Of a stretch of 64,000 nucleotides of DNA, positions 11,806-40,394 are shown one piece after another. Origin of the DNA: Polytrichum commune. Lineage: Eukaryota; Streptophyta; Polytrichopsida; Polytrichales; Polytrichaceae. Each line of letters opens with the position of its first letter. The first letter of the stretch is position 1. The notes beneath the pieces were generated by a model. That model was not told the origin of the DNA, did no database searches, and saw only the letters and a list, made by a program, of their open reading frames with translations. The stretch is from positions 25,223,501 through 25,287,500 of the forward strand of contig OX485805.1 in assembly GCA_950295325.1 (NCBI GenBank), given 5' to 3'. Both the position numbers and the translations under genes were made by a program.

Positions 11806-12714
11806 CTACACACATGCACATGAAACCTCAACAAACATGCACACCATGTAAGGGTTCAAAATAATCAAATATCGAAAAATGCAAGACATCATGATAAATG
11901 GGGACACCGAGGATAAAGACATTTGCAACACAACTACAATGTGAACTCCCAATACTTTGTGCAAGTTCCAAAAAATTTTTTGGGAGGGGGTTTGGGTCGA
12001 CCGACCCAAACCTTCTCATGGTCAACCTCCAGCCGGCCAAGATGGGGTTGGGGTTTGGGTCGGTCGACCCAAACATTGTATGTCAAGGGGTCGAGGGGTT
12101 TTGGTCAAGCCCGCCCACACTGGTCGAGGGGTTTGGGTCGACCGACCCAAACCTGATCACAGTCAGGTTGAACCCGCCCACACTAGTGGAGGGGTTTGGG
12201 TCGACCGACCCAAACCTGGTAAGGGTCAGGTTGAAACCCTCCCACACTAGTGGAGGGGTTTGGGTCGACCGACCCAAACCTGGTAAGGGTCAGGCTGAAA
12301 CCCGCCCACACTAGTGGAGGGGTTTCGGTCGACCGACCCAAACCTGGTTTAGGGTTTAGGGTTAAACCCACCCACACTAGTGGATGGGATTCGGTCGACC
12401 AACCCAAACCTGGTAAGGGTCAGGCTGAAACCCTCCCACACGAGTGGAGGGGTTTCGGTCGACCGACCCAAACCTGTGTAAGGGTCAGGCTGAAACCCAC
12501 CCACACTAGCGGAGGGGTTTGGGTCGACCGACCCAAACCTGATAAGAGTCACACTAAAACCCTCAAAATCCGGCGGATAATGCGGCGGATAATCCGAAAT
12601 CCCATATGATTTTGAGCTCATTGCAAAGTTCCCGGTGGGTTTCCATGCTGTGGATAGGTACTCATGAACTTGCATGCTGTGGATAAGTGCTAATGAACGG
12701 CAGCATGCACAAAC
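11806..12714 (-). other. Inferred 5' leader intron of the DUF7869 gene
   Basis: On the minus strand a CAAG|GTTTG donor at 12714 and a TGTGTAG acceptor at 11806 bracket the palindrome array. Units 1 and 2 also have a leader intron filled with palindromes that ends just before ATG. cDNA evidence is lacking. Confidence 0.55.
11989..12537. repeat. Type-1 palindrome array, 9 sites, ~64-bp period
   Basis: Sites start at 11991, 12054, 12132, 12195, 12259, 12323, 12389, 12453 and 12518. The consensus is TTTGGGTCGACCGACCCAAA, extended by GG and CC in the better copies. Seven consecutive sites are spaced 63-66 bp. The centre dinucleotide is AC (GT on the other strand) throughout. Three sites have decayed left arms (TTTCGGTCG or ATTCGGTCG). 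The spacers repeat too and hold a second dyad, CACTAGTG, flanked by CCTC and GAGG. Confidence 0.95.
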
Positions 12715-12802
12715 CTTGAAGTATAGCTCCGACTAAGAGTTCTCTCTACGAATTCAAGAGTGGGAGAAGAGCAAAAAAGGACAGAGTTTTGGGGGGTGCG
12801 TC

Positions 12803-12810
12803 CCTTTATA
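12803..12810 (-). promoter_or_regulatory. TATA box candidate for the DUF7869 gene
   Basis: TATAAAGG on the minus strand, about 90 bp upstream of the inferred leader-intron donor. This leaves room for a short untranslated first exon. Confidence 0.5.
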
Positions 12811-12984
12811 CTATCCACCTCCGTTTCTCCGACTTCCTCATTGGATGCCTTTTCCGCCTTGTTCTCCTGCAGAGGTTTTTTCAAACCTCCTGACATAATT
12901 CCCCGTTTTCTGTTTATAGTAGAAAATGCGCATCTATCAATGCCCCTCTCATACCCCAGCCGTCATATGACTTAGTCTATGATA

Positions 12985-15240
12985 TTTAATCTTTTTTTTT
13001 TGTCTTGTGTGGATATGACATACGCCGTTGGGAGGAAGGGTGGCGGCCACATTAATTTTTTCAAGTATCATCAAGGTATATTTTAACCAATATGTAGACC
13101 CAAACACAACTCCATTCAATGCTTTCAAGTGTAAACCTATTTAGGTGGGGTTTGGGCCATTTGGAGGCTGCAATTATGAGAGAGTTTCCAAGGCTTGAGG
13201 CCATTGTCATGATGAATAGAATTATTTATTTGTCTCCCCTAAACCCTAAACCCTAGAACCTTGCTCTATTATCTCGCATGCAAGAGTGGCAATGACGAAC
13301 GTATGTGGACGTTGTTAAGGGGATACTAACCACCAATGTCCCTTTTTAGTTCAATCTGTTAATGTTACTTGAATCCATCCTCAAGTTCACTTCAAGTTTA
13401 CTAATGTGTGAGAGCAAAACATCGAAGATTGGACCCTAAACCCTTATAACATCCACAACATGAAATACGCATTGACTAAATACAAAACCAATTAGGATAT
13501 CATGTTTAAACGTCCCATATAACATATTAACATGATCAAGATTGTATTTACTATGACCTTCCGATTAGACTCTTCTTCATATTATGCAAACAATATCTGT
13601 TATATCTTCCTCCATTATCTAATACACGTCGAGAGAACAATGAATAACAACATGATGTTGTGCTTCTCCGATTTACTTTTACATCACATTCCATATATTA
13701 AATACATCATGAACGATGGTTTATTAGGGACTAATATGTGATTCCCTAAAGTGAGCAAAACATCCAAAGTTGGACCCCTAGTCCCTATTAACATCCACAA
13801 TATTTCATGTTATTTGAATAAACACAAGACCAATCAATATATCGCGTTTAAACGTCTCAAATAAACACAAGATCGTCTTCACTATAACCTTCCTATAAGA
13901 CTCTTCTCACGAGTAAGACAATGTTATACATTGACATTGGATAGATTAATATGTTATAACCCTATCCCCTAAACCCTAAACCCTAAACCCTAAACACCAA
14001 AATTTAGTAGTGGTTCACTGATGCCCCCATATACAAACAACATCTATTTTAAACGTTCTTATTAAGTGTATCAAACACTAACTATCATATTGAGTGTAAT
14101 TATCATATTCATTGTAGTGACACTACAACACTTTCATTGACTAGATAAAACTAAATTGGATATATAGAGTTTGATACACTAAATATGAATGCATACACTA
14201 ATTACCAATATCCCTATGACAATATGTAAGGTTATATCTAAGGGATTTTATTCTACTTGGAGTCAAACATTGTGGTATAATTCAAACAATATATTGACAA
14301 AAGAGGTGCCAATATTATAAAACCTCATATACTAAAAGTCACTAAATATAATAGTTAATGCAATTATTTAGACCCTCACATGAGGACTTATATTTTGAAA
14401 ACAAGGAATTGATGCCATGACAAAGTTGAATATTTTGGTCAACTTTCAATTTGCGCTAATCAAAAGAACATATGTTGTTTGTAATGTGTGCACACAACAT
14501 TGCTCCATCCTCAAGCATGCAAGTGTGACATTAACCTACGTATGTGGAAGTCATTAATGGAACCATAAATCACAAATGACATTTGTGAGTTCATTCTTTC
14601 GTGAATTAGGATGTTCTGATGACAATATACATTTGTATTGAGAACTACAAGCACCAAGGCCCTGTCATTTGACGTGTGTGCCATTCATTTATGGTTTGTG
14701 GTGTTTAGGGTTTAGGGTTTAGGCATCATCGAACAAAAAACTAAATGTTTAAATGGCTTCATATGATATGTGAAGTCCATGGGGTTGAAGTAGATACATT
14801 TGTTATCATTTTGTTTCTACCATGTACTTCAAATTTGAGCTTCTAAGTACATATGTTAATGTTCACTCTAATGCTACTTGTTAGGGTATCCATTGTAGTC
14901 TAGAGCTTTGTCCTCTACCAACAACCATCATAGAAATTAGAATACATAACCCAATACCCTTAACCATGTGAACGGTTACCATATTTATATTATTGCACCG
15001 TGTAATTGCCTTTGAAGATTGCAATATAATTATGAATTACTCCTCTTAGATTTTGTAACACTCTCATATGATTCCATACGACTACATTATTGAAATACCA
15101 AAACAAATAATGGCTACGATGTTATCAATTATCAATTCCAATGGGCGATCATTCAATTCAACACCATTAAAATCAGAGTTCGCGATGGTGTAAATATTGT
15201 GCAACACCTTAGTCTATGTAGCTTTTTGAATGTTTTTGAA
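12985..15240. other. AT-rich intergenic DNA with telomere-type repeats
   Basis: No supportable gene. It holds interstitial telomere-type runs: CCCTAAACCCTAAACCC near 13238-13255, about four CCCTAAA units at 13967-13995, and GTTTAGGGTTTAGGG at 14703-14723. Confidence 0.6.
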
Positions 15241-15503
15241 TTGCCGGTAATGAATACCGGGTTAGAATGCCGGGGCCGGGCGGCCAAGAGAGGCGCCGAC
15301 CCTCCTATGTCCCGCCCCTAGAGGCAAGGACAATGCCGAAGGCAATGTCCATAGGGTGCCATGTGTCAACACCAGAAGCCGCGCGGGCAACCACCTCCAC
15401 CAAGGAGGTTTGGACACCTGGCAGGGTTTTGGCCCGCGAGGCTTCTGGGCCGTTGATGGGCGAGAAATCGCATGGCCAGGATTGTCTGAAGGGGAACCCC
15501 TTC

Positions 15504-16175
15504 AGCTCTCCCCTTCTCTCCCCTCCTCTTTCTCTCTTTCTCTCTTTCTCGCTCTCCTCTCCCTCCGCGCGAAGCGCCGCTATTGGAAACGCCGCCGCCG
15601 TTTTCCATAGCTACGCGCCAAACGCTTCTTTTGTGTTTTTTTTTTTTGCGCTTGGACGCGCCGCTTTCCTCATTGTCTTTCTCTTCACTTCTACCTTCTC
15701 ATTCTTCTTCTCCATCTCTCTGGTGCTTTTCCTCCTCTTCTCGGATGATATGCTTACTCTCTCTTCTTGGTCCAGAGTGCACGCATTGAGTGAGTTTAGA
15801 GCGGATTAGTTGAGCGTCTTTCTTGTTGTAGAGTGGTAGCAGTGAGTGACATCATACTTTTGTTGTTGTTGTGAGTGATTTCAGGTTGTTATTAGTAGTG
15901 ATCAGAAGGCTTGCAAGAATGAAGGTGTTTGTGAGAGGGTTTCAGAGTGCTTGTGAGATTCATAGTGTTTTTTAGGTGTTTCTGAGTGTTGATTTTTAGT
16001 GATATCACAGATTCTCTGGATTCTGGTTATAAGAATTAGCTTGTAAGAGCAGCTTACAAGAGTTTCTGGATTCTGGTTATAAGAATCAGCTTGTAAGAGC
16101 AGCTTACAAGAGTTTCTGGATTCTGGTTATAAGAATCAGTTTGTAAGAGCAGCTTACAAGAGTTTCAAACACAAG
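15504..16175 (+). promoter_or_regulatory. Unit 1 leader: TC-rich tract and untranslated first exon
   Basis: A GC-rich segment (15260-15480) gives way to a CT-rich tract (about 15505-15570) typical of plant 5' untranslated leaders. An untranslated exon then ends at a donor, ACAAG|GTATAT, at 16175/16176. The exact transcription start is not visible. Unit 2 has the same order: CT-rich tract, untranslated exon, donor, palindrome-filled intron, ATG. Confidence 0.55.
16017..16162 (+). repeat. Three 50-bp tandem repeats, each a hairpin, in the unit 1 leader
   Basis: Three copies at 50-bp period. Each carries CTTGTAAG-AGCAG-CTTACAAG (stems at 16040-16060, 16090-16110 and 16140-16160; the last has one changed base). 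In a transcript each would form an 8-bp stem with a 5-base loop just before the leader-intron donor. Confidence 0.8.
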
Positions 16176-16966
16176 GTATATCATTTCACTCTACACAATT
16201 TGCTTTAGTTCCTTTACGATCATGTTTCATATACAATGCATTGTATATGATGTTTAAACATTAAACATGCCTCTGGAAACTGAGTAGTTTCGGGAGGCGA
16301 CCCAAACCCCAATTTAAAATGTAACGAAACATTTAAAATCAGCTTGAAAATTGATTAAATGTTTGGGTCGAGCGACCCAAACATTGCAGCCTCATGTTTG
16401 GGTCGCTCGACCCAAACCCCAAAGGCTCATGTTTGGGTCGAGCGACCCAAACATGAGGCTGCAATGTTTGGGTCGCTCGACCCAAACCCCAATTCAAAAT
16501 ATAAAAAAACACTTGAAACCAGATTGAGAATTAATAAAATGTTTGGGTCGAGCGACCCAAACCCCAATTCAAAATATAAAAAACACTTGAAACCAAATTG
16601 AGAATTAATAAAATGTTTGGGTCGATCGACCCAAACCACAGAGCCTCATGTTTGGGTCGATCGACCCAAACCCCAGACCCTCATGTCCGGGTCGCTTGAC
16701 CCAAACCCCAATTTCAAATCTACTGAAACACTTGAAATCAACTTTAAAATTAATGAAATGTTTGGGTCGCTCGACCCAAATACTGTAGCCTCCACATTTA
16801 AAGAATACGAGCCACCAAGTGGTCAAGGTTTCGGTCGATCAACCCAAACCTTGAATTCGGGATGGCCAATAAAATACATCTGTTCCATTCCATCAAATGC
16901 TAAATGCATTGTGGACTACTTTAGGTCGATCGACCGAAACTAATAGTTTGCATTTTGGACTTTCAG
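16176..16966 (+). other. Unit 1 leader intron
   Basis: A 791-bp GT-AG intron whose acceptor (GACTTTCAG) directly abuts the ATG. It contains the palindrome cluster listed separately. Unit 2 shows the same acceptor-ATG fusion at 35982/35983. Confidence 0.65.
16288..16939. repeat. Type-1 palindrome cluster in unit 1 leader intron
   Basis: Good sites start at 16362, 16397, 16432, 16467, 16542, 16616, 16651 and 16761. Decayed sites are at 16288, 16686, 16829 and 16920. Centres are AG/CT in most and AT at 16616, 16651 and 16920. Sites from 16467 to about 16690 lie in ~74-bp repeats that include a CACTTGAAACCA segment. Positions 16362-16416 and 16432-16486 form a perfect 55-bp inverted repeat around a 15-bp loop, each arm holding two palindromes. 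Confidence 0.95.
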
Positions 16967-17978
16967 ATGGCCCCAAAGAAGAGACCCGGAGAAAGGTTTT
17001 TTATGCTCGCGCCAGACGCACTATGGCAAGAGTATGAAACTCCCCATGACGACTCATACGTGCCCAAGGATGGGCTCGTTCTTGCGTGGTCAGTTCAGGT
17101 TGTCAAGGGCTCCCAGTTCAAGCTCCTGTTCATGGTAAAAGTAGGGACCCACGAGAACCACACTTGGACAACGTTGACAGGATGGGAGGTTGCGTCCGTC
17201 CAAGCCCTCGGGGATTACGTGGACGTAATTCTGGAGAACTCCGCTGTGCAGAACGCCCACATGTTCATGCACCAGTTCTCCGAGTCATTCGACACCATAT
17301 ACGCCAAGGAGTCATGCGTGGAGCCTGAAACAATTAAACCGGAGACAATTTTCATCGATGGCAATGTAACCAACACGAAGGTTGCAAGTAGGTTTACAAA
17401 ATTGAAACAGGCTATCACGGTCCTCAACAAGGCACTGCAAAGTAAAGCCAAAACGCAGAAGCCTGTGAGGCGTAAGGCAACGGCGGAAGAAGACGCAGGG
17501 TCGTCCAGACCCCAAACTGTCAGGATACCGTGTCCGGTCCCTGCAGACTCCAGACGGCCTAGCACTACAGGAACGTCGGCTGACAGCGAGACGCCCACAC
17601 CGTCCGGAAGCCGGCAGACGACCCCATCGAAGAGGGCGAGAGAGTCCTCCGTCATGACTACCGAGCCAGTTTCCCCGGAGCTGCGGATGCCGAAACCTGG
17701 CCAAGAGGTGGATGCAGGCGAGATACAGAAAATCAATGATAACTTCGAGACGAAGTGCCTGCATTGCTTCTTCATGGGCAGGGATTTCAAGTTCGAGGTG
17801 AACATTGCACAGCGCTACCTTGTGCCACCTGAGAAGTGTGTCCGAGCCAAGGAGGACGCCTACGTCGACTGGATGGTCGCTCAGATCTTGGGAGGGCAAT
17901 TCAAAGACGATAGGCAGACAATTGTTGTCATGCCCCAAGGGCTGAAGAAAATGCCGACGCCTGAAATGTGGCCGACAA

Positions 17979-18952
17979 TGTCGCGCACCTCTCCATGAGG
18001 AGTGCCCGAAACACCATGGGCACAAGGGGGACCCCGGAGTGACACCCGGGACTTGTGGCGCCGTTGGTGAGAGGGCCCAAGTGATCCTAGTGTGGGCGAG
18101 GGCCCCGGGCGTTGGGAACGCCTCCCACCCACGAAGACTAGGAGGCACAAGGGCAAGGCCATGAGCTATGCGTAGCTCATGGCGTGGTGATTCTAGAATG
18201 CTCAAGAACACCTCAATCCGAGGTGTGAGCTAGGAGTTATGGCCATTTGAGTGGGGCGCTGTCCCGGGACAGCGCCCTGGTACAGCAGTGCCTGGGAGGG
18301 ATTCCCGGGACTGCCAAGGTTCAAACAGGCATAACTTCCTCAAGACTTGCTCGAATGGAGCAAGTGAGGAGTCCATCGGCATCTACGTGAAGCGTAGATG
18401 AGGATGGAGTGGTTGGTTGTTATGATCAGACATCATACAAGGAAGTTATGATGGTCTGAAGCTGCTGGGGGGTTCTAGGCCCAGCAGCTAAAGGAAAATG
18501 TCCACTTGGCCCCAACTCTTGGTAGGGAGACAAGAGGTTGGTTGACGGTGGGGTAGGGGCCCCGCGTGAAGTCCTAGAGGCTTATATGGGTGAGGTGGTG
18601 TGGCCTCACCCACCCGAGGCCGAACGGCAAGGCCTCCATGGGCATTGGCCCATTGTGAGGCCATAGTTGCCTAGTATGGTTCGGGTTGTTGTAGTGTTGC
18701 TCCGGCAACGCGATGATCAACATAGGATTGGACTTCCATGGATGGAAGTCCACATTGGGGAAATGGGTTACCGATTAAGGGGTGAGTCCCGAAAGCAAAG
18801 TAGGAGGGTTGGTTCCCTCCTATGAACTATTGGTCCGGGGTTAGAGGAGCTAACCATTAGCATGGCGGTATGCGAAGGGTTAGGCACTCGTAACCTTTGC
18901 TAGAATTGAAAATTGGCAAGATGGTCAAGGGGGGCTAGCAAGGGTTGCGACA
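17979..18952 (+). repeat. TE2 5' LTR
   Basis: 974 bp, TGTCGC...GCGACA. Followed by two bases and the TGGTATCAGAGC primer site. Confidence 0.95.
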
Positions 18953-20724
18953 CGTGGTATCAGAGCAGGGTTCCAAATTTTGAGCTCGCACTTTGAGGGA
19001 AACATGGCTATCAAAAAAATGCGGGTTGTGATGGTGAGCCCGTGGTTTCCAAAAGGTTGTGAGGCTTAGATTGGAACAAGGATCATGTGCAAGTGGAGTT
19101 TGACCATACCATTGGTTCTAATGACAATGGTGGGCACTAAGGTGGATTCGGTAAGGAAATTGAAGGAGTGCTTTGAAGAGGGCTCCCACAAACCTCCAAA
19201 AGTATTTGGGGCCTAGAATACCGAATGCACCTAAAACCTTGGAGGGTATTAATTTTGGATTGAAATTCCAATTTGAAATGCTTAAAAGGTGGTGATGTTG
19301 GAATTGGTGCAAATGAGGCACCCGGGGCCTCTTAAGGCCTATGTGCGCTATTCAAACGCACAAGTGAAGGATACACCTAAAATGGACGACCTTGTGAGAC
19401 ATGCATCGTTTTAGGTGGGAATTCAAAAGCGGGTGGTGAATTCCATGTCCGAGTCCCCAAAGCTTCTTGAGGACGTATCGGGAATCTTTAAGATTTGAAG
19501 AACATTGAAGTCGATGGTCCTAAAAAGAAGTTCGACGGCGTACCACCATGAAGTGGGTTTAGCCGAAAGAGGTCTCAAGGAAATGGGCATAAGTAGTGTG
19601 GCCGTTATACCAAGGCAAATCATGCTCGTTTCGCGGACACAATGTGGAAGGTGGCGTTGTGGTACCAAGCCAAATCATATTTGTGCCGTATGCGGAATGT
19701 TAGAAGTTGATTTTATGCTACTAATCCATATAATGTTTGGGCCGCGGACGGAATGTTACAATGTGAATTGGTGGTACCAAGCTAGAACATATTTGTGCCG
19801 CGGACGGGATGTTAAAAGTTGGCTTTGCGGACCAAGCCAAAACATATTGTTGCCGTGGACCGAATGTTAGACTATGGCTTTGTGGCCAAGGCTAATAGCC
19901 TTAAGCCAAGGCCAAGTCTTTTATACCTTGAGGCTCAAGTAATCGGAGATATGTCTCATGAGTTGACAAAGAGGCAATGGACTCTTTCATGAGCCCAAAG
20001 CTCATAAGGGGGTTGGGGCTTGTCGATGCATAGAGCGGGCAAGCCCACCAAGGTGCGGTTTGCAAAGGGCGAACCGCATGAAGCAAAGGAAGCCGCGATG
20101 CATGTAACCTTTCAATGTGGGACATTGGATTTTTGTCAAAATTTCACACCAAGTGAAATAGATGAAATGCATGTCATTGTGAAGGCCGCCTTCTTTGAAA
20201 CTCACCTGATAGATGTGAGGTGCAAGCCGGTGTGCTTGCGGTGCATTATGATGTGTTATAATGACAAAGAATTGAAGTTCAAATTGACAAGGACTCCTAT
20301 GGTAGGAGGATCTAAGTTGAATTTGGTCTTAATGGACCAAATGAAAAATAGAAAGCATAATGGACGTGGTTCAATTGGAGCAACTCCAAGGAACGTATGG
20401 GGAGGCTAGGAAAGATGGGCCTCCCCCAAACAACATTGGTGTGATGTTGGTGAGATACAAGGATGTATTCACCAATGTGTTGCCCAAAAAAAAATTGCCG
20501 CCAAGGAGTGAAAAATAACTTTGCTCAACAAGAGATTGAGTTCTAGAGGTATGTGGTGACAAAGGAAGTTGGTGGACGAACATGAAGAATGTCAAGGCAA
20601 TCCAAAAGGAGAATTGGCCCTTGATTCAAAAGGGCTTAGGTCATTTGTTGGCCTAGCCAATTAGTACCACAACTTCATTCGAGAGTTTTCTAAGGTTCCT
20701 AGGATCTTATTCAACTTATTGAGG

Positions 20725-21400
20725 AAAATGGCTATCCCAAGAGTGGGATGAGCCTTGTCACCAAGCCTTTGGGGGGCTCAAAAACAAGTTCTCTTCGCCG
20801 CCCGTGCTTAAGTTCGCGGACTTTAACAAACCTTTTGAGGTGCATATGGGGGCGAGTAATTTTACAATTGGCGGATGTTGATCCGAGATGGATGTCCATT
20901 GCATATGGGAGCATTAAGCTTAATGGTTGTCGAACCTAGTGCGATTTGTGAAAGAAAGGGCTATCCCAAGAGTGGGATGAGCCTTGTCCCCAAGTCTTTG
21001 GGGAGCTTAATACAAAGTTGTCTTTGCCACCCGTGTTCAAGTTCGCGGAGCTTGACAAACCTTTTGAGGTGCATACGGGGGGGGCGAGTGACTTTGCCAT
21101 TGGCGGATGGTTAACGTAAGATGGATGGCCATTGCATATGAGAGTGTTAAGCTTGATGGTTATCCGACCTTATCCGACTTGTGGAAGAATTGGCTATCCC
21201 AAGAGTGGGAGGAGCCTTGCCACCAAGTCTTTGGGGAGCTTGAGAGCAAGTTCTCTTAGACGCCCGTGCTCAAGTTCGCGGAGCTTGACAAACCTTTTGA
21301 GGTGCATACGGGGGTGAATGACTTTGCCAATGGCGGATTGTTGATTTAAGATGGATGGCCATTGCATATGGGAGCATGAAGCTCGATGGTTATCAAAGAA
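20725..21400 (+). repeat. RNase H-segment tandem repeats in TE2
   Basis: Copies start near 20727, 20955 and 21190 with a period of about 228-235 bp, parallel to 2865-3520 in TE1. Confidence 0.8.
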
Positions 21401-21784
21401 GACAACCAACTCATGCCAAACAACTTCTTTGCCGTAGTGCATTACTTGAAGATGTGGCGACACTATTTGGGGTCGCACAAAGCAAAGGTCTATATGGACA
21501 ATGGGTCCTAAAAGAATTTTGACATTCAAGCGCAAGTGAGCGCCAAGTCATTGCGGTGGCATGATAGTTTGGCGCTTATGAACGTGGATTTGATCCACAA
21601 ACCGGACCAAGGAAATGTGGTGCCGGATGCGCGAAGTAGACCGGAAGAGTTCCAAGCAATGAGAACCATCCAAACCTTGTGGCTAATGTGTGCCGGCAAA
21701 GGAAACTTGTGATGCAAGATACGGGAGGGGTAAATTAACTACCCCAAAGCACAAAAGCTTTTAGGTGAGCTTCGCAAGAGCAAG

Positions 21785-23002
21785 GTGCTCAAAGAGGTTA
21801 AGTTGGTGGACGGATTGTTCAAGTGCAAGCAAAGTTGGGTGTATGTGACACAAGGCAAGTTGAGGCTATCGGTTTTGAAGGAGGAATATGATAGTCTTAT
21901 TGCCGGCCATAGAGGAGAAAGAAAAAGCTGCCATAGAATGGTGTCAAAGAGGTACCATTGGCGGTGCATAAAAGAGAATATAACCCACTTTGTGAAGGCG
22001 TGAACAAAGTGCCAAGTGAACCGAGCCTCTTACCAAAAGCAAGGCGGTTTCTTGCAACCGTTGCCTATCCCGTCGGGGCCATGGCATACTATGTGCATGG
22101 ATTTGATCACAAGTTTGCCGGAGTCACATGGATATGATGCCATCTTGTTGATGGTAGAGCGGTTTGCCAAGTTGGCACACATGGTGCCGATTGTGGGAAC
22201 CCGCACCGCGTTGGAGACCGCATAGCCTTTTCTCAAAGGATGGTTGAGGCACCACGGGTTGCCAAGAGTGATTGTGTGGGATCAAGATCCAAAGTTCACA
22301 AGTGCATTTTCAATGCATTTCTCTAAGGAGGTCGGAATGAAACTAAGGTTTAGCACGGCCTTGCATTCCCAAATGGATGGGAAAACGGAGCGTGTGAATG
22401 GAGTCTTGAAGCAATACTTGAGGAACTTGGTGGGGGCGGACCAAGGAGATTGGGCGGACTATGTGGGTCGAGCGGAGTGTAATTGCAATGTAGCCACGCA
22501 CTTGGCTACCAAGGGGTGGTCTTTCGTGGTGGCTTATGGAGTGGATGCGCTCCAACCTATTAACCTAGCTCTCGAGGGGGCACATTCAACACTAGAGTTT
22601 AACCAAGATGGTGAGGACTTGGCCAAGGATCGTAAACAAGTCTTGGAGATGACCAAGTTGTTGGTGGAGAAAGCCCGAAGGTACTACGGAGTGCAAGTCA
22701 ATGCCGGAAGACGCGAAGTGGAGAATGAGGTGGGCCAAAAGGTGTTGTTGAATGTGAACAACTTCACCTAGCCGGAAGGCCTCACTCCAAAGTTCATGTC
22801 CAAAATTGGAGCTCCGTTTTCCATTGTGGAACAAGTGTTCAAGGACATATATAAGTTGGAATTACCGCCCAAGATCAAAGTGCATCCGACATTTCATGTC
22901 TCATTCCTAAAACCATTTAAGGACGACACCTTGTGGCCCGATCACAAGCAAGTGATTACGCCACCTCCCGACCTTGTGGACGTCATTTGGAACATGAGGT
23001 AG
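21785..23002 (+). pseudogene. TE2 integrase remnant
   Basis: Open pieces 21785-22003, 22016-22225, 22244-22771 and 22796-23002. The core keeps the WDQDPKFTS and HSQMDGKTERVNG motifs. A TGA (ending 22003) and a TAG (ending 22225) are shared with TE1. The last piece holds the SH3-like/tail region of gypsy integrase (HPTFHVSFLKP). Confidence 0.85.
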
Positions 23003-28725: not shown

Positions 28726-28747
28726 GTAATGCACTGACCCCACTCAG

Positions 28748-28767
28748 TTTGGGTCGGTCGACCCAAA
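28748..28767. repeat. Type-1 palindrome in unit 1 intron 3
   Basis: A single perfect site with centre GT, 22 bases after the donor of the intron 28726-29243. Confidence 0.95.
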
Positions 28768-30056: not shown

Positions 30057-30062
30057 GGCACT

Positions 30063-30136
30063 ACGTGTGTTTGTATGTGTATGTATGTATGCATGTATGT
30101 GTGTGTGTATGTATGTGTGTGTGTGTGCGCGCGCGC
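30063..30136. repeat. (GT)n/(GTAT)n microsatellite
   Basis: A TGTG/TATG-rich simple repeat ending in GCGCGCGC, just after the HAD stop codon. Confidence 0.9.
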
Positions 30137-30239
30137 CCGTTCATTTTGTGTAATATATGCTTCATATGTATCTTGATTTTCACGCGCTCTATCAAACCCT
30201 CCTCCCTTGGGTTTTGTTTCGTTTCCTTTTTTGCGCCAG

Positions 30240-31041
30240 CGTTTGGAGCCCTCGATTGACATCGTCAGCGAGTCAGAGTTGGGGAGCTTCTTCTACGAAA
30301 CCGTTTACGACGCCGCGTCAACCATTGACTACTCCAAGGAGCCTCTTGACGCCGGCGTCGTCGATAGCCCCCCACCCAAGCAAATCTTCCGGCGATCTCT
30401 GTCCCCGTCGCCGCTCAAGGGCATAAATCGCAAATGCGTCCGGACGTCCCCCTCTCGGCCCGGCGGCAGTAGTACACCTCAACGGCGGCTGCGGATGGAC
30501 GCTCGGCCTACGAAGAGCGGCACCCTTCCTATTCCTTTGCGGGACGCATTGCCCCTCCTCGCCGACTCCGACGGGAACGCCCCCGGTGACAAGGTGAACC
30601 CCCCCCCCCTTCACATGGTTAACCGCGCATTACAATCATCCCGCACTTAAAAAATGAACGTGTGACACGTTTGGGTCTTCCTCCCTAAACTAACACATGT
30701 GGTCTTGCATTGACGCGTTGCAGGTTGCTCCCTCCCGTAAACCTATGCGGTCTAGTATGTCCGTCGAGTTGGAGCGTTTCTACTCCATGACCAGAAATGC
30801 AAGACAGTCCACTTCATCGTATTCGAATTCTTCGTCGTATAATTCAGGCGGCCGACGGAATCCAAAATGTGTTATTGATGGCGGTCACCCCAAGAATGGC
30901 TATAGTCGCGGGGCGGAGATTTTCAGGAATGTTGAAGCAATGCGAGCAAAAGAAGCCGCAGCAAAAGAAAAAGAGGCAAAAGCAAAAGAGGCAAAAGAAA
31001 AAAAAGCAAAAGAGATAGAGGCAGTCTCCGAGGCTACATAG
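30240..31041 (+). CDS. Unit 1 exons 5-6: conserved Ser/Pro-rich and Lys-rich C-terminal part
   Basis: Two phase-0 exons, 30240-30593 (from GCGCCAG, donor GACAAG|GTGAAC) and 30724-31041 (acceptor CGTTGCAG, ends TAG). Shared with unit 2 are DYSK...VVDSPPPK, then SPSPL, then RRLRMD / RRLCMD, and in the last exon GYSRGAEIFRNVEAM / GYSRGPEIFRAMEAM followed by a Lys/Ala/Glu tail. The function is unknown; the Ser-Pro pairs could be phosphorylated. The preceding exon ends in a stop in both units, so these exons are either a second small gene or are reached by alternative splicing that skips exon 4. Phase 0 permits that. Confidence 0.6.
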
Positions 31042-31194
31042 GCCATAGTAGGTGTAGGGTTTTGGACCATAGGCAATATGATTTTGGGTCGCACTATCCA
31101 ATGGATGTGTGGTGTTAGCATGCTATGCATTTTACGTGCCATACTTTGTATGTTTTTCTTCTTGCAATAATATAAGTGTCACATGATTTTGCCT

Positions 31195-31410
31195 TCAATA
31201 TTGTCTAAGGTTTGGAGTGCCTTATTGTGTGCATTAATATGAATGTTTTAAGATTTCCCCTTCAATAAGATCTATGGTTTGGAGTGCCCTACCTAAACCA
31301 TACATTACAAGCTCTCATATTTTGTGTGCATTAATATGAATGTTTTAAGATGTCCCCTTCAATTTGGTCTAAGGTTTCGATTGCCCACCCTAAACCATCA
31401 CAAATATGAG
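31195..31410 (+). repeat. Tandem ~120-bp duplication downstream of unit 1
   Basis: Two imperfect copies share TCTAAGGTTTGGAGTGCC-type and GTGCATTAATATGAATGTTT segments. Confidence 0.7.
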
Positions 31411-31527
31411 TTATTAATGGGGTTCTTGGTCTAAACAACCGCTTCAAAGTGTTCGCATCTTACAACTTTCACCAATATGTGTTCCATTTATCCTTGTTCT
31501 TATTTCTATGAATGTCTCAAAATGCCC

Positions 31528-31558
31528 AAAAAGTCTCAATTTAACGAATATAGTGTTA
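31528..31558 (+). other. Conserved 3' motif (copy B)
   Basis: AAAAAGTCTCAATTTAAC then GAATATAGTGTTA, 487 bp after the last unit 1 codon. Similarity to copies A and C stops right after GTGTTA. In copy B a different repeat (31559-31700, ending in CCCTAAA units) begins directly at that point. Confidence 0.75.
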
Positions 31559-31975
31559 TTATTAGCCCCAAAAAACATAATGGAGAGAAAGGAAGGGTAG
31601 GGTATCCACATAGTACTAAGGCAAGCAATATTAAGTTGGTGACGCAAGGGGGATACTCAAATGCGTTCGTACGTGGTACCCTAAACCCTAAACCCTATAA
31701 CCACCCAACCCTAAACAAGCATGTGGACATATAGGGGTGCAAGCATGGTTAACTGAACAACTCCTGATACAGGTCAAGGCTTAAATGGAAAGTAATTCAA
31801 AACAAGCAAGCAAACAATTATACCAATTGTTGTTCTACGTAACACTATTAACCCATAAAATATAATGGACAGAAAGGGAGGGTAGGGTATCCAAATAGTA
31901 CTAAGGCAAGCAATATTAAGTCGGTGACACAAGGGGGATACCCTAAACCCTAAACCCTAAACCCTATAAACGACT
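31559..31975. repeat. Direct repeat ending in telomere-type units
   Basis: 31559-31700 and about 31848-31975 share ATAATGG-GAGAAAGG, GGGTAGGGTATCC and TAGTACTAAGGCAAGCAAT. Both end in runs of CCCTAAA (two to four units). Confidence 0.8.
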
Positions 31976-33880
31976 CCCCACTCATGTCAAGGCCCAAAAT
32001 TATCTAAAATAAAACCATAAACATTTCAAAAGTCAAGCAAATTTATGTTCACAAATTATACTTCAAGACAGTAAGTGGTGAAAAAGTAGGTGACATAGAA
32101 CAAAGATTTATCAAATTGTCAATGGCAATCCTAATTACCCTATATGCGTAACCTTACCTTTCATTTTTTTAATCTTTATTTGGTTGGGTAAAATATACCC
32201 TTTAGAGGCAAGTACAAGATTTAGCCGGGACTTGTTATCCTTTGATGTGACCTCAAGTTTATAATGAAATGAAGGGATACAATATGAAAACAATTAAGCC
32301 TTCAAAACATTTAAGATCATCAAAGTTATGTTCTGAGTCATATTTATCCATTTGCTTTAAACCTTTACTTTTGAAGATAGGTTTTGAACATCATTAACAC
32401 AACCATACATGTCACCATCATGGAAACAAAACTCCAATATAAACAACAATTTGCTACTACTTATAGGCGATAATACAAGCTCTTGCCTAGGTTTGGAAGG
32501 ATTGGATGAATCCTGAAGGTTGTTTAATGTACAAGAGGGATGTAAATTCAACAGCTACCCATGCCTTTTGTTTTAATGCAAGCTTAGACCTATGTGCAGA
32601 GGGATTGAATTAACCCCTAACGTTGTTTAAGATTTTATAAGCATTTGATCTTAACCCATATTATCTCGATGTTTGGTTTTGTTAATTGTGTTTCAAATGT
32701 GCATAATTTAAATATCATTATTTATAATGATATTCGCATAAAAGCATCCCACGTGTCGAACTTCAATAAAGTTTTCAAGTTGCTATTGATAGTATAATTT
32801 AGGGTTGAAAATCCCCTTACACAAATTATTGCGATAATTGAGGGATTCATAAGGGTGTAGGGGCAACGTTTCATGAGAATTTGTGGCCAATGGGTAATGC
32901 AATTGTCCCAATTGCATTTGAATCCCACCTTTGTGAAAAAAAAATTATACTTAACTTAATCAAGAAGACATCCTTTATATTCAATATTATTACTATTCTT
33001 AAAATATAAAGTCCCCTCCATACTTGCTACACTAGAAATGGTATAATTTAGTTTCATTCATTGTTTGGAGTTACAAAAGGCTTTATCTTTTTATTATTGA
33101 TGTTATTTAATTGATGCCAATGACATAATATACAATGAATAGTTAATATAGCAATCCATAATTCTAAATATTAAGCAATACTACTTATAATAGTTAGTGT
33201 ACTAGTAATTTAAAGCCCGCTTACCTTCATATTACAACAAGTCCAGAAAGAAAATCTTACACTTGAGTTACTCAACCTCAACCTATACTTCAGAATTATG
33301 TTTACTATTGGGCCTAGATGGTTATTATACATTGAGCATTGAGATTCTTTTATTTTTGGTCAGCAATTGTTTTTGGTATACGTTCTTGGACTCAAACAAC
33401 ATACAGTCCATCCTCTATAAATGTTAGGCTCTAGAATATAATGTTCCTAACATTTATTGTGAGTTGACATTGTAACAATTATAAAGGGAGCTTTTTGAAT
33501 GCTTAACAAATTTCATTCATTACAATTATGAAGGGAGAGTTTTGCAAAATTATCAAACATAAAATATGTGTATCAATCACAATATAACCCATATTAATAA
33601 TTTGATCACAAATTTGGTTGCTTTTGCCACTTTGGAAGGTTGTGACTCAATGTAATGGATGTCATCTCACAATATTGGATGTAGTTCGTAGGTTAACATT
33701 TATAAGTGGCAAATTAACAAAGAGGGGAATAAATTATTCTTAACATTTAACAAAGTTAACATTCTAGTTAGCAATATGAGAGGAGTACGAATTTGTTAAC
33801 AAATATAATTATGAGTTAACATGTGGAAGTGTGACATTTATCGAGGGTGGACTCTAGCACTCTAATATAGACCAATAGAC
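31976..33880. other. AT-rich intergenic DNA
   Basis: No supportable gene or RNA is visible. Confidence 0.5.
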
Positions 33881-33884
33881 ATAT

Positions 33885-34900
33885 GCCACGTAAGGGGAAC
33901 GCGTGGCCTTTGGGCGCGGGGTGATGGGACGTCTAGGTCGGGGCGTTTGAGAGGGAGTGGATGCAACGTTTTGGGTTTAGGGTTTCGTGCATTCGCCCTT
34001 GCCCTTTTTGCTTTCACCCTTTCACCCTTTCCTCCTTTCGCTCCTTTCCTCCTCCTGCATTCCTTTGTTGCTCGCCCTTGCTCCTCGCCCTTGCTGGTCC
34101 TCCTTCTCCTCCTTCTCCTCCTCCTCATTCTCCTTCTCCTTCATTCTCATCCTCAATCTCCTTCTCCTTCATTCTCCTCCTCAATCTCCTTCTACTTGAT
34201 GTTTCTCCTCATTCTCCTCCTCCTTCTACTTGTTGTTTCTCATCCTTCTCCTCTTACTTGCTGTTTCTCCTCTTTCTCCTTCTTGCTCTTGATTTGTTGC
34301 TTTGTGTCTTAGTTCCATAAGAGCACCAGGAGCTCTAGCCAGGTGTTTTTTTCTTTCCTTCACTCCAAGATGTGCTGTTCCAGGTGCTTATTAGGTGATT
34401 TCAGTGTATGTTTTGATGCACAAGAGGAGGATTGTAAAGGTGCAAGCTATGTAGATGGTTTAGGGTTTCTAAGATAATGTATGTGAAGAAATCTGAGTAT
34501 GTTTGTGAAGAAATTGAGTAGTTTTTTGCTTGCAGTCTCATTAGGACATAATTGGAGTAGTTTCAGTTGTTGCAAGGGTTTTAGGGTTGGAGTAGTTTTA
34601 GTTGTTTCAGATTGCTCTTCCCTTCATATTGTAATTGTCTTCACTTCACTTCACTTCACTTTGTCCAAGTTCTAAGAAGTTTTGCTTTGTTCACTTCAAT
34701 CTGATGTCAATGTTGAATCCAGTTCAATCTTTGTAGTAGGGGTTTTTTTGTGGGTTTGATGCATTTTAGGAGCAACACAAAGGTTAGTTGATTCTTGAAT
34801 GTGCACATTGCATTAGCAGAGGTTTCTAACTTCAATTTTATTGTTAATTTGCAGTCTCTCCTAGCTACAGCTGTGGTTTAGGAGCAAACATTGTACAAAG
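33885..34900 (+). promoter_or_regulatory. Unit 2 promoter and untranslated leader
   Basis: A short GC-rich stretch (33890-33960) is followed by a long CT-rich tract (about 34015-34290, CTCCTTCTC repeats) and an untranslated exon ending at the strong donor ACAAAG|GTAAGTG at 34900/34901. A (CTTCA)n run is at 34633-34660. The organisation mirrors unit 1. Confidence 0.55.
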
Positions 34901-35982
34901 GTAAGTGTTTCCTACAACATTGCAATTCTGAAATGATACATTCTTCTTAGTTTGGAGTGTAGAATCTGCTATTGCAATGCAACACCTCATACATTCTAAT
35001 TTGGAGTGCAAATCCATGTTGCATTCCAAGTTAAGATGAACATTGCACATGAATGGAATGCACAGACAAAGTTCTTCCGAAAATTTCGGAACAATATCCA
35101 AAAACACATTAACAATAATTGTACAAAGTAATTAAATTCACAGTAATTAAAGAATGGTCTGAACTTTACGGATGCGCGTCCGTAAACTTCAGGGAACCCT
35201 GGGAATAAGCATCGCAAATTGTGTGAAAACATTAATAATAATTGTGAGAAGTAATTAAATTCACAGTAATTACAAAATGGACTGAAGTTTACGGACGCGC
35301 GTCCGTAAACTTCAGGGATCCCTGGGAATAAGCATCGCAAATTGTGTGAACACATTAACAATAATTGTGCAAAGTAATTAAAATCACAGTAATGCCTGAA
35401 GTTTACGGACGCGCGTCCGTAAACTTCAGGGAACCCTGGGAATAAGCATCGCAAATTGTAGAGATATTTAAAAATAACTATTTAAAAACTTGAGATATAC
35501 AAATACACTTGAGATATATAAATACACTTGAAATATACTTGAAATATAATACATGATACATGTGCAGAGTTTACGGACGCGCGTCCGTAAACTAGGCAGA
35601 GAAGACATGAGAATCTCATAACATAATATATGTCATGGGTTTTCAAAATAAATTCTACAAAATATACAAGTTCTACAAGACAAAACAAACTTATTTTCCA
35701 AAAATTTACGGACGCACGTCCGTAAAAAGGGCTACCTAAGAATAAAAAACCTATTATATTCCAAAATATTGAAACAGACACTTTTGGATGATATATCCGC
35801 ATGAGTTTACGGACGCGTGTCCGTAAACTCTGCCCATATATCGTGTAAGATTTCTTTTCATAAAATATCTCAAGATTACGGACATGTACTATAGGGTGCG
35901 CATAGGTTTACGACCGCGCGTTCGTAAAATAGGCTCTGCATCCCTTGACCTTAATATTGATTTATATATTCCACATTTGCAG
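34901..35982 (+). other. Unit 2 leader intron
   Basis: A 1,082-bp GT-AG intron. Its acceptor CATTTGCAG directly abuts the ATG at 35983. It contains the type-2 palindrome cluster. Confidence 0.65.
35165..35928. repeat. Type-2 palindrome cluster in unit 2 leader intron
   Basis: Sites start at 35165, 35288, 35402, 35570, 35705, 35806 and 35907; the last is decayed. Arms are TTTACGGACG and CGTCCGTAAA around a 2-bp centre, usually CG. The first three lie in ~115-123 bp tandem repeats, and two of them extend to perfect palindromes of 34 bp (35282-35315) and 36 bp (35395-35430). A half site is near 35875. Confidence 0.95.
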
Positions 35983-37272
35983 ATGGAATCTACAAAAAGA
36001 TCAGCTATTGATATATTCGCAGAGCTTCTCCATCCTCCGCTTCCAGACGCCATCAAAGATATCAGCCACAACGACCATTACAAGCCACGCGATGACATTG
36101 TAGATAACTGGACAGTTATTGTAGAAAAAGATGAAAATGACATATTTGTCCTTAGATTTGCTTATCAAATTAAAGCAGATATAGATGAATCCGAGAAGTG
36201 GATCAAGGTTAAAACTTGGACAGTAGAGTGTGGGGTAGCCCAAGGTGATTATGTTGTCATTGACCTTGAAAAGAAAAATGATAGGATCACATTTATTTTG
36301 CACGAGTTGTACCATCCGTTCAACAAAAATGAATGTGAGAATGCCAACCCAGATGCGTCTTGCTTCAATCTACAGAATGAATTCCAAGACTATGCATGCA
36401 ATGCGCCCTGGACGGGTAAACGGCTTGGACGTCTTTTGAACAATGTGACAAGAATAAATGTGGCATTACTCGAAGCCAAGAAAGAAAATGAGAAAAAAAA
36501 ACCAGTTCCTGAACGACCTAAACGTGTTCCTAAACACGTGCCAGAAGCCTCCAGACCCTCACAGAGTGGAGCATCAAGATGGAGCAAGCAGGCCAGTAAA
36601 CGCTCCCACTCACAGATGGAGTCATCTGGGCTAACAGAGGGTCTAGATGTGAGTTCTACTCTTACAGTCGCCCCACTTCTCAAGAAAGGACAACGCCCGG
36701 ACGCCGAACTATCCACAAAGATTTTCCAAGAGTTCGACGAGAAGACAAAGGGCTGCTGGCCGCTTGGCAGATATTTCACGTTTGATGTGGATGTCTACAA
36801 ATGCCACAAGGGCACGGAGAGTATGAATACTCGTGCCAAATAAGAGAGCGGGGTGTGGTGGCAAATGAATAACATTATGAACAACCCCAAGTTTGATAGG
36901 CAAACGATATGTGTGACACCAAAGGATCATGTGGTTGAAGTCACAATGCAAAATTGGCCAATTCTCAAAGATGGAGAGTTCTACATAGTCGACGGCCAAC
37001 ATAGCGTGATGGCTGCAAAAACTCTCCTCGAGGACGATGAGTGGAAGAGCCCTTTGAAAGAGACAATCCGATACTGGAAGGCATTCGTCGTCCATTCCAA
37101 AGACTCGAACCAGCTCATCACAATATCTGTCTTCATGAACCAAGGGAATAAAGTGAGGCAGTTCGAGGCTTCATGGGCTGCCAACATCGTGGCTGGAAGG
37201 ACCTTGTGGGTGGAGTACGATTGTCCCCCAAAAGAAAGGGAGAATGCAGTCATCAAGAATCCCAAATGGCAT
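35983..37272 (+). pseudogene. Unit 2 exon 1: ParB/Srx-like domain, one in-frame stop
   Basis: A 430-codon exon from the ATG after the leader intron to the phase-0 donor TGGCAT|GTATGT. The N-terminal region parallels unit 1 (GDYVVIDLE), followed by a Ser/Lys/Pro linker and then YIVDGQHSVMAAK at residues ~335-347, the same DGQHS signature as unit 1. Further conserved runs are MNQGNKVRQFEASW and PPKERENAVIKNPKW. A TAA at 36841-36843 breaks the frame upstream of the signature. Protein similarity to unit 1 is clear but moderate, and base composition is much less GC-rich, so the duplication is old. Confidence 0.7.
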
Positions 37273-37289
37273 GTATGTCTCTGTATAAT

Positions 37290-37311
37290 TTTACGGACGC
37301 GCGTCCGTAAA
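37290..37311. repeat. Type-2 palindrome in unit 2 intron 1
   Basis: A perfect 22-bp site in the 113-bp intron 37273-37385. Unit 1 has seven type-1 sites in the equivalent intron. Confidence 0.95.
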
Positions 37312-37385
37312 CCTCTTCCTTCTTCCCATTCTTTAATTCCTTCAATTTAAACTCTGCTGACTTCTTGAAATGCATGGCTTTGCAG

Positions 37386-38704
37386 ACATTCAGCAATGCC
37401 ATCTTGATAAAGTTCTCCAGCATTGACATTAAGACGAGCGGCATGAAGACGGTGCAAGAGCTGAAGGGGGAACTTAAGCTCATCACTGCCACAGAAGAGA
37501 CATGGGCAATTTGGTTGCGCCTATTCGATGCCCACAACAACGGAGACCTTATCAACCCGGATGCTGAAAACACGTACAAGATCGACTCGAAGGTTAAAGT
37601 GCCACCTATCCTGAGAGAGTTATTTCGTCCCCTCCAAGGATTGCTCGACTCCGAGCTTTACAGAGCGGCACAACACATCCTGTTGGAGACTCCCAGGAGG
37701 ACACTGCCCTACCCCAAAATCTTCCTAAAGAGGCCGAAGCACATGAAGCCTTCTACGTACCACATTAAGGAATGGTGCGAATATAGGAAGAAGAAGACCA
37801 TGGCTATAAGGGAGATTAGCAAGATGTTGCCCTCCCACAACCTCACTAATACAGATGGTGAGATAATGTGGAAAAACTGGAGGACGCTCAAGGAGGAATA
37901 CCACATCAATGGGGTCTCCATGCGATCATTGATAAGAGGCGCATCTCCCTTCCTAGCCCAAAGATCTAGGAGGAACGAGAAGAAAGGGTCTATCGACGAA
38001 AGAGAGACAGCGTTGTACGTGCATTTTCTTGACAGAAAAAAAAAAGCAAAATTCGGAGGGGTAGCAAGATTCTGCACAGTGACATCGGCCTTGAAGTTTG
38101 GCACATGGGACACCCATGCTTCAAGAGCCTCTGTGAGAGATGACCCCCGGGGTTGTTCGTTCGCAATCTTTGATTTCCGTGCATTTCCCGGATCTTGGAG
38201 ACAAAACGTTGGCGGGACCGCTTTCTATGACAACTTCTTCAAGGCCTTCAAGAGCTATCGGTCGCCTGCCCTCTTCGAGCCAAATGTGTGGCTCTGGATT
38301 GTAGATCAAGAGAGGTCCGCATCGATCGTCCAGCTGTACACATCGACGACGAACCTCCAATACGATCTTTACCACAGCACATACATCCCCGCGAAGACGG
38401 AAGGGATCAGTGTTATTGAAGAGGCAAGAGGAGTGCAGCAGGCCGGGCTGTGGCACTTTATTTCTTGACACACAAGTCTTCACCAAGTGGGCGGATGCCT
38501 ATCAAAGCGCAGAACGTGTTCAAGAAAGTATACTCGTTGCCACCACCACACCCCAAGGAGCTTGTCGCGGAGACTATGTATGCAATCTACCCGGCGTACG
38601 AGCTCCGAATGGATTTTTATATTGGAGTCTTGAAGGCTGTGACTGTGATGAGTGAAACAGTTTACAACGTCTTCGGAGGCACCAAATTTGTTTATGCGGC
38701 ATTG
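37386..38704 (+). pseudogene. Unit 2 exon 2: conserved middle region with a frameshift
   Basis: Entered at GGCTTTGCAG and left at GCATTG|GTAAGT. The length, 1,319 bases, is one short of a multiple of three. The frame runs to a TGA at 38466-38468 and resumes in another frame (ALYFLTHK..., matching LCLYFVYK in unit 1), placing a one-base indel near 38410-38450. Conserved blocks are those listed for unit 1 exon 2. The domain is unrecognised. Confidence 0.75.
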
Positions 38705-38750
38705 GTAAGTACTTGTATGCACCTCTTTCCATGCTCCATGTGAATTGAAA

Positions 38751-38820
38751 TTTACGGCCGCGCGTCCGTAACATTGTCCACCATATATGCAGTGCAAATT
38801 TACGGCCGCGCGTCCGTAAA
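38751..38820. repeat. Two type-2 palindromes in unit 2 intron 2
   Basis: Sites at about 38751-38772 and 38799-38820, both with left arm TTTACGGCCG (one shared change) and the usual right arm; the first has lost an A at its end. The intron is 38705-38901. Confidence 0.9.
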
Positions 38821-38901
38821 TTACACTGCTTCATGTTTATATTTGTCCTGATACTTGCTCGCAACAATGGAATGACTAGAATTTTCCTTGTTTTGGTGCA
38901 G

Positions 38902-40344
38902 ATGCTTGGGTTGCAGGTAAATTCGTTTGTGGAGGCTCGCGACATGGATGAGGCGAATACTCATAGGGTTCTTGCCTCCAAAATGGATATCGAAGACATC
39001 ATCGATGTCCTTACCCCCCATCCTGTGGTGCCTCTTGCCTCAAGAGAAGAGGGAACTCCTGCGACGGAGTGGGACAGTGACGGAGACCAAGAGCCCGTGT
39101 CCCCAAGAGAGCAGCCCGCTAGACAAGATCACGTACCCGGCCTTGTTCGTGATCCTGTTCATCCTCATCAATTTGTCTTGGGCGAAGACCGCATGGATAC
39201 AGAGGAGGCGCATGAAGACTTCACTCCAATAAGGGTCCATCCTACCCCTATTCCCTCTCCCTTTGGGACTCCTACTTCTCGAGTTGGGTTTCCTTCCACT
39301 GCGGGTCCATCGCGTGTTGCTGGGCTTATAGCAGAGAAAGATGTGGACGTTGCGACAGAAGTCGGATGCACAACCTCATCTGGAGGAGGCTCTGAACAGG
39401 CAGAGCTACCACCTATGGAGGGTAGAGATGTGATAGAGTTGATTTTGAGGCCGGATATCGCCTCATACCGTGAGAGTCGTCGACAGAGGAAGAAGACTCC
39501 TTACAACGAGTACCCTGAAGGCGCCGTCTTGGAACTCTCTGATGAAGACGAGGATGAGGTTAGGATGTACAATGCCCTCTCTGCGTTGCCTTCTGAACCT
39601 GGCAAGGTGAAGAAAGAGCCGATGTCTGTGGCCGAATTGGACGAGAAACTGGAGAAGAGAATGAAGGAAGAGCTTGACCAACGGCTTCGAGAAGCTAACG
39701 AGGAGCACGCCAAAAAGATGGCCGCCATCCAAGCTGAGATGGAGGAGGCTAGGTTGGAGTCTGCTCGAAGGCACGCCGATCTCATGGCTCAAAATCAACA
39801 ATTCTTGGCCCAGAGCCAACAATTTATGAGCCTCATGCAGAGCTTGCAAGCAAGACCCCCAGTAATGTATGCAGCTCCCGAAGCCGGCATGTCGATGCCT
39901 CCCACTCTCATGCGGCCTCCGTCTAGTAGCCATACGGTGTACATACCAGAGCATGCTTATCCAGCCCCCGCCTTGTATGTCCCGCCCTCTCCCCAGGTTG
40001 CTGCCACCCCAGAGCCCTCCTCTCATACGGTACGAGAGGAGGAGAGACCTGCACGTTATACGGCAGGTGCTCACGAGAAAGGCACCATTGAAGACAACAC
40101 AACCATTGGCAGCCAAGAAGATGAAACTATGCGGGGCAGCCAAGAAGATGAAGCTATGCGGGGCAGCCAAGACGCCACAGATGAAGATCAACCTTATGTC
40201 GACACCCAGGGGTCGCAAGCGGCTGGAGGCGCCTTGGTGGTGGAGGATAGCTTGCACAATTATGCGGACGCGCGTCCGGAACGTGTGCCCACGATGGGGC
40301 CTGGTGAGCCAGGCACTGCTGGTGAGGGCCTCGCCGCTGAAGAT
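38902..40344 (+). CDS. Unit 2 exon 3: acidic, coiled-coil, Pro-rich region
   Basis: A 481-codon phase-0 exon from acceptor TTGGTGCAG to donor GAAGAT|GTAATC, open throughout. It starts MLGLQVNSFVEARDMDEAN. It contains a DEDEDE patch, a strong coiled-coil candidate (LDEKLEKRMKEELDQRLREA onward), a Gln-rich segment (QNQQFLAQSQQF) and a Pro/Ser-rich tail with short GSQEDE repeats. It corresponds to unit 1 exon 3 in position, phase and composition rather than detailed sequence. One type-2 palindrome derivative is read in frame near the end (ADARPE). Confidence 0.7.
40261..40282. repeat. Type-2 palindrome derivative inside coding exon 3 of unit 2
   Basis: The core GCGGACGCGCGTCCG is kept while both ends are changed. 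In this frame a canonical site would end in TAA; here that codon is GAA. Confidence 0.85.
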
Positions 40345-40372
40345 GTAATCCACCTTTGAGCTTGCCTCCCAC

Positions 40373-40394
40373 GTTACGGACGCGCGTCCGAAAC
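40373..40394. repeat. Type-2 palindrome in unit 2 intron 3
   Basis: A near-perfect site (outer bases changed), 29 bases after the donor of intron 40345-40684, the same place as the single type-1 site in unit 1 intron 3. Confidence 0.9.

Follow-up and report, generated by a model that had tools for sequence, protein, structure and literature searches.

The DNA analysed here, referred to throughout as the window, is a 64,000-nucleotide stretch of Polytrichum commune (contig OX485805.1, positions 25,223,501 to 25,287,500). It contains two units, each with a ParB-like gene and a palindrome type of its own (type A in unit 1, type B in unit 2), and these are, with practical certainty, subfamilies of one large DNA transposon with terminal inverted repeats (TIRs). 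Protein clade and palindrome type change together beyond these two units. The explanation that best covers the data as a whole, to which we give a probability of about 0.6, is that each subfamily encodes a ParB-like protein that reads the palindrome of that same subfamily. The transposon nature of the units, their gene content, the predicted fold and the congruence of sites with proteins are results of this analysis. An earlier, sequence-only reading of the window had proposed paralogues that each diverged with its own site. The joint divergence stands and reaches further than the two units, with binding of site by protein as its candidate basis, but the two units belong to a high-copy DNA transposon family and one is nested in the other, which makes them mobile-element subfamilies, not host paralogues.

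The window was searched for both palindromes with up to four mismatches allowed. Type A, GTTTGGGTCG-NN-CGACCCAAAC, is present as 33 copies that form arrays at 11990-28768 (23 exact), with a weak 34th place at 30669. Type B, TTTACGGACG-NN-CGTCCGTAAA, is present as 12 copies at 35165-40394 (five exact), and a half site at 7115 and a weak site at 52998 bring its total to 14 places. Both types are built as 10+2+10, that is 22 bp. The dozen or so copies of a different 22-bp palindrome that the sequence-only reading had assigned to unit 2 were recovered; its two dozen copies in unit 1 were likewise borne out, but each of these measures 22 bp, with a free centre, rather than 20 bp. The sites are distributed as follows.

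11989..12540: upstream array of nine type A palindromes, spacing 63-78 bp, with the ParB-like gene on one side and the divergent DUF7869 gene on the other
16360..16942: leader-intron cluster of 11 type A palindromes, unit 1
25309..25672: intron 1 array of seven type A palindromes, period 57, unit 1
27086..27179: intron 2 array of three type A palindromes, period 36, unit 1
28383..28473: two type A palindromes within coding exon 3, in-frame reading FGSxDPN, unit 1
28747..28768: type A palindrome right behind the exon-3 stop, unit 1
35165..35928: leader-intron cluster of seven type B palindromes, unit 2
37290..37311: intron 1 type B palindrome, unit 2
38751..38820: two type B palindromes in intron 2, unit 2
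40261..40282: degenerate type B palindrome (four mismatches) in coding exon 3, unit 2
40373..40394: type B palindrome (three mismatches) right behind the exon-3 stop, unit 2

We see matching positions in the two units: the leader intron, the first two introns, the third coding exon and the sequence right behind its stop. This agrees with what had been claimed, except that the array at 11989-12540 lies outside the leader intron, whose own cluster is the one at 16360-16942. The claim that neither type occurs in the other unit also holds: at up to four mismatches, the window list has type A sites only outside the unit-2 gene and type B sites only outside unit 1. The centre of the 34 listed type A sites is AT in 11, AC in eight, AG in six, CT in four, GT and TC in two each and GC in one, whereas the arms vary little. 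The window holds 68 palindromes with arms of at least 9 (one mismatch allowed), compared to 3-9 in five order-2 Markov sequences, and the two patterns read backwards gave 0 matches each in the 408-Mb genome. The type B palindrome of the unit-2 element at 7115-7136 was apparently cut by a retroelement, leaving the half site. Three degenerate unit-1 palindromes (12388, 16685 and 16828) have CG changed to CA or TG, as the decay of methylated CpG predicts.

The ParB-like genes each have three exons, with borders placed by eye.

16967..28737, + strand: ParB-like gene, unit 1; exon 1 16967-17978 and 24987-25300 (split by a retroelement), exon 2 25720-27051, exon 3 27262-28737
35983..40359, + strand: ParB-like gene, unit 2; exon 1 35983-37272, exon 2 37386-38707, exon 3 38902-40359

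Where pieces of the two genes could be aligned, their identity is 25-50%. Structure prediction gave the ParB/sulfiredoxin fold of the N-terminal ParB domain for the DGQHS region, which in unit 2 sits in exon 1, in agreement with the predicted likeness noted earlier. A profile search of this region, as the sequence-only reading had suggested, matched phage family PHROG 1033 with a probability of 96.3% over 21 columns; classical ParB was not recovered, as discussed below.

To follow the pairing of protein and site, we turn to relatives. Three protein searches of public contig collections (ena, jgi, lgn, ncbi, src) listed 218 of them, mostly on contigs of a few kb; those with names are called 'hypothetical protein', and some perhaps come from the window's own species. 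Many of their reading frames run into introns, and palindromes can therefore be decoded from the translated tails. When the tails were scanned with the pattern NTTNNGNNCG-NN-CGNNCNNAAN, 39 of the first 99 proteins had hits, 49 in all (shuffled mean 1.05), and 29 of the next 119 had 39 between them (shuffled mean 0.55). The arm types are A GTTTGGGTCG, A1 GTTTCGGGCG, A2 GTTTGGGCCG, B TTTACGGACG, B1 TTTACGGCCG and C TTTACGAACG; 15 proteins are assignable only as 'B or C', and one (P0098) has type A plus a one-base variant. Trees were built with the tails cut off, from exon 2 (72 rows, 32 typed) and from exon 1 (57 rows, 23 typed, 22 in the coarse count). When the types are reduced to A, B and C, each tree requires two changes, the minimum possible. 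With all types the exon-1 tree requires six changes (minimum 6; shuffled mean 11.5; as low in 0/200) and the exon-2 tree six (minimum 5), these being quick trees in which near-copies favour the clustering of any label.

The genome itself (408 Mb, 64 contigs) holds 9,231 exact type A and 1,147 exact type B palindromes. The unit-2 exon-2 protein has at least 114 matches (113 of 1077 candidates scored) and the unit-1 exon-2 protein at least 126 (126 of 1077 scored), spread over seven large contigs, and about four in five of the gene copies are listed without an internal stop. Many palindromes far from any such gene, which had been named as evidence against the pairing, were not seen among the type B sites covered: 47 of the first 50 distinct sites listed (contig C1, 25.42-37.10 Mb) have a scored gene copy no more than 10 kb away, and the other three form one cluster with no scored gene beside it, at 113 of 1077 candidates scored. 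The proposed search for further copies with local palindromes gave a type B cluster at 6/6 scored copies on C1 below 37.12 Mb. For type A, the first 2.2 Mb of C1 has six site clusters, one with a scored gene. A genomic type A copy at 85% identity has six type A sites, and a copy at 52% identity (L047, L048) has three type C sites, each one base off; all three main types are therefore found in one genome.

The transposon was delimited from its ends, its target duplications and related copies.

8202..31557, + strand: complete unit-1 DNA transposon (type A), including both ends; TIRs, 4-bp duplication ATTA, empty site in a related copy
8202..8229, + strand: left terminal inverted repeat of unit 1, matching the reverse complement of 31530-31557 at 27/28 positions
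31530..31557, - strand: right terminal inverted repeat of unit 1
31558..53722, + strand: unit-2 element (type B), right part; holds a gypsy element at about 41844-52826
17979..24981: LTR (long terminal repeat) retroelement within unit-1 exon 1; target duplication GACAA, LTR pair

The left part of the unit-2 element matches 7118-8201, and its left end was not found within the window. A type B copy elsewhere (c1, on contig C6) shows the empty site of unit 1, and this, the inverted repeats of unit 1 and its ATTA duplication together indicate that unit 1 jumped into the unit-2 element. The terminal sequence AACACTATATTCGTTAATTGGAGACTTT starts both c1 and a second type B copy (c2, on contig C7), with its inverse at the other end in 27/28 places, and the right end of unit 2 bears the same terminus. 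Both have sharp ends, with lengths of 17,328 bp (c1) and 17,227 bp (c2). The target duplication is 4 bp in 3/3 complete copies examined (ATTA for unit 1, CTCA for c1, AGGT for c2). From left to right the element comprises the DUF7869 gene (minus strand), the upstream palindrome array, the ParB-like gene with its three exons and a phosphatase gene; the several kb between array and ParB-like gene hold no clear genes. In c1, the ParB-like, DUF7869 and phosphatase genes are all open, exon by exon. Neither window copy is intact. The ParB-like gene of unit 1 is interrupted by the retroelement and has in-frame stops at 26101 and 27358; that of unit 2 has a stop at 36841, and its frame shifts near 38440-38470.

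Between c1 and c2 there are 49 differences in 17,206 gapless columns, with CpG transitions enriched (12 of the 49 at 1253 CpG columns, 37 at 15,953 others), as methylation of such elements would predict. In older copies, taken together, the CpG excess is slight (0.058 vs 0.043).

The remaining genes of the element are these.

8840..11827, - strand: DUF7869 gene, putative transposase, two pieces (11827-10283 and 10246-8840), divergent from the ParB-like gene
29244..30056, + strand: NIF/FCP1-type phosphatase gene, unit 1, first part; PF03031, E 5.2e-15
40685..41452, + strand: NIF/FCP1-type phosphatase gene, unit 2, first part; PF03031, E 2.6e-12

The second DUF7869 piece matches PF25273 (Pfam, E 1.6e-40), and the protein has no PDB relative by sequence. 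Its conservation and the inverted repeats suggest that it is likely the transposase. A PF25273 protein inside a TIR element is consistent with DUF7869 being a transposase family. The unit-2 phosphatase continues in later exons at 52827-53413, past the gypsy insertion; a phosphatase of this type is carried by both subfamilies and by c1. Within the unit-2 element, the gypsy-type polyprotein at 44989-51249 runs for 2086 residues without a stop, and the terminal region of the gypsy element has short tandem repeats near 43053-43425. Short interstitial repeats of CCCTAAA, the plant-type telomere motif, lie inside or beside the elements at 13950-14011, 14689-14723 and 31676-31985. Open frames at 61114-63323 look like a MULE/SWIM-type transposase; the three of their pieces that were scanned matched no Pfam family at E 0.01.

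Which element protein reads the palindromes is best judged from what changes with them. Between type A and type B elements, DUF7869 is 64-65% identical, the ParB-like exons 26-47% and the phosphatase 40%. The ends and DUF7869 stay comparatively stable while palindrome and ParB-like protein move. With the fold taken into account as well, the ParB-like protein is the favoured reader, a role that we consider probable. Congruence and fold favour it without amounting to proof.

Several observations weigh against this reading. Congruence alone is compatible with another element protein as reader, because the genes of the element share one history, and the divergence of the phosphatase nearly matches that of the ParB-like protein. 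Tail decoding leaves some bases open, 150/218 proteins have no site, and untyped rows were left uncounted. The exact type B site is absent from the 4-kb stretch at 10/29 genomic type B loci. Arms in exon 3 are kept no better than the exons themselves (17/20 vs 4083/4767 identical). Against classical GERR-type ParB the profile search gave no match (0.3%); the ParB arginine motif (box II) is replaced, with DGQHS in 50 of the 54 rows that have letters (3/57 rows gapped); and no helix-turn-helix was identified, with exon 1 as the part folded and the helices at 388-421 being of low confidence. Finally, pairing is not strict within copies: of the 15 listed sites of c1, 13 carry the B arm and the other two TTTACGAACG or TATACGAACG, while one 75%-identical copy mixes TTTACGGACG and TTTACGGCCG (B and B1). 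Because of this mixing, and of the C-like sites in type B copies, neighbouring arm types may be readable by one protein.

We infer binding, dimerisation, anti-silencing, a role for the phosphatase and DUF7869 as transposase as the steps of a mechanism. A protein of ParB/sulfiredoxin fold, most likely dimeric, would recognise its own subfamily's 22-bp palindrome (10-bp arms, free 2-bp centre) at sites scattered through the upstream region, introns, exon 3 and 3' end. As subfamilies split, protein and palindrome would change jointly while the ends and the DUF7869 protein stayed alike. Most likely the protein would serve as an element-specific chromatin or transcription factor that acts in trans against silencing, so that every copy with the matching palindrome stays active; the FCP1-like phosphatase may assist it at RNA polymerase II. 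That the outcome is anti-silencing or activation, and not repression or copy control, has somewhat less than an even chance. A more elaborate and rather unlikely form would be a eukaryotic ParB-parS-like transposon system, with nucleation on subfamily palindromes, spreading along the 17-kb element, a nucleoprotein domain marking 'self' copies throughout the genome and a CTD-type phosphatase acting there; co-evolved protein-site pairs would then divide one genome into mutually blind transposon clans.

Should the ParB-like protein read the palindromes and thereby repress its own element or control its copy number, as KorB or Noc do, the same congruence would be expected. This seems unlikely to us: dozens of sites per element, out to exon 3 and the 3' end, are more than a promoter repressor needs, and the elements have multiplied to hundreds of copies, although neither point is decisive. 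We regard it as still less probable that the palindromes are subterminal or internal binding sites of a DUF7869 transposase, leaving the ParB-like protein another role. The DUF7869 gene does adjoin the upstream array, and element proteins bind repeated subterminal sites in plant transposons (Spm TnpA). However, TIRs and DUF7869 are common to elements with different palindromes, while the ParB-like protein diverged with them, and 24/33 unit-1 sites lie in or just after the ParB-like gene, remote from the element ends. An action in RNA, whether as intron and exon hairpins that affect splicing or as double-stranded features in a silencing conflict, is very improbable. The palindromes do sit inside transcribed regions, and the c1-c2 CpG enrichment fits methylation, but one array is upstream and probably outside transcripts, and fixed arms around a free centre typify a dimeric DNA site; a hairpin would permit compensatory arm variation, yet the arms are nearly fixed within a type. 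That the palindromes are functionless repeats, parasitic or drifting, multiplied by gene conversion and tandem duplication is scarcely credible: regular local periods (57, 36 and 63-64 bp) with local centre dinucleotides show that the arrays do expand by tandem duplication, and exon arms are no more conserved than exons, but site positions match in elements whose proteins are 26-47% identical, exon-3 sites are in frame, and noncoding arms of unit 2 and c1 agree in 200/209 aligned columns (95.7%) vs 1272/1564 other noncoding columns (81.3%), with 11 arm columns and 200 others unaligned and a global alignment that can favour repeats.

The joint change of specificity in a DNA-binding protein and its many sites is an old question, for which natural matched series are rare. 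One genome and many public contigs here supply five or more arm types together with proteins that are often open, which makes specificity residues readable from sequence. If the ParB-like protein is indeed the reader, a ParB-fold protein would be at work inside a eukaryotic transposon.

Among known systems, canonical ParB is a CTPase whose box II motif, GERRxRA, contacts CTP. The present protein differs from bacterial ParB-parS, Noc-NBS and KorB-operator systems in its replaced box II arginines; as noted above, no helix-turn-helix was identified in the part folded; no ParA or P-loop family is among the Pfam hits of the 19 window pieces scanned, and the gene has introns and sits in a eukaryotic transposon. 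Phage DGQHR ParB-like partition proteins (PHROG 1033, e.g. Staphylococcus phage 85) are alike in the motif (EFYIVDGQHS here, SFYIIDGQHR there), but H-R has become H-S and the likeness is confined to the motif. Maize Spm/En encodes TnpA, a DNA-binding protein with many subterminal 12-bp repeats on the element and a link to demethylation. It resembles the present case as a transposon-encoded DNA-binding protein (here a predicted one) with many short sites on the element, and differs in the protein, in its subterminal sites and in being a single family rather than a series of diverged pairs.

The closest known parallel is VANC in the VANDAL elements of Arabidopsis. VANDALs are MULEs, which make 9-bp duplications, and we know of no ParB fold in VANC. 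The present element instead has 4-bp duplications and a DUF7869 gene, with no MULE domain found by Pfam in the element pieces scanned. VANC21 binds the 9-mer YAGTATTAY in noncoding regions of VANDAL21, with loss of methylation there, the targets of VANC6 differ from those of VANC21, and the target repeats diverge rapidly (PMC5735166; PMC10398659). Both systems pair an element-encoded factor with arrays of a short family-specific motif in noncoding regions of the same DNA transposon, and in both, related families have different motifs that diverge together with the protein (PMC5735166; PMC10398659). They differ in that the VANC21 motif is a 9-mer where we see a 22-bp palindrome with a free centre, and in that anti-silencing was demonstrated for VANC and is a proposal here. 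The earlier statement that no system of this form had been described therefore needs dividing: self-recognition by element-encoded factors is already known, whereas our literature searches found no published description of a 17-kb element that has phosphatase and DUF7869 genes and whose self-recognition would rest on long palindromes and a ParB-fold factor. If the proposed reading is correct, these elements would represent a second, apparently independent case of VANC-like element-specific self-recognition.

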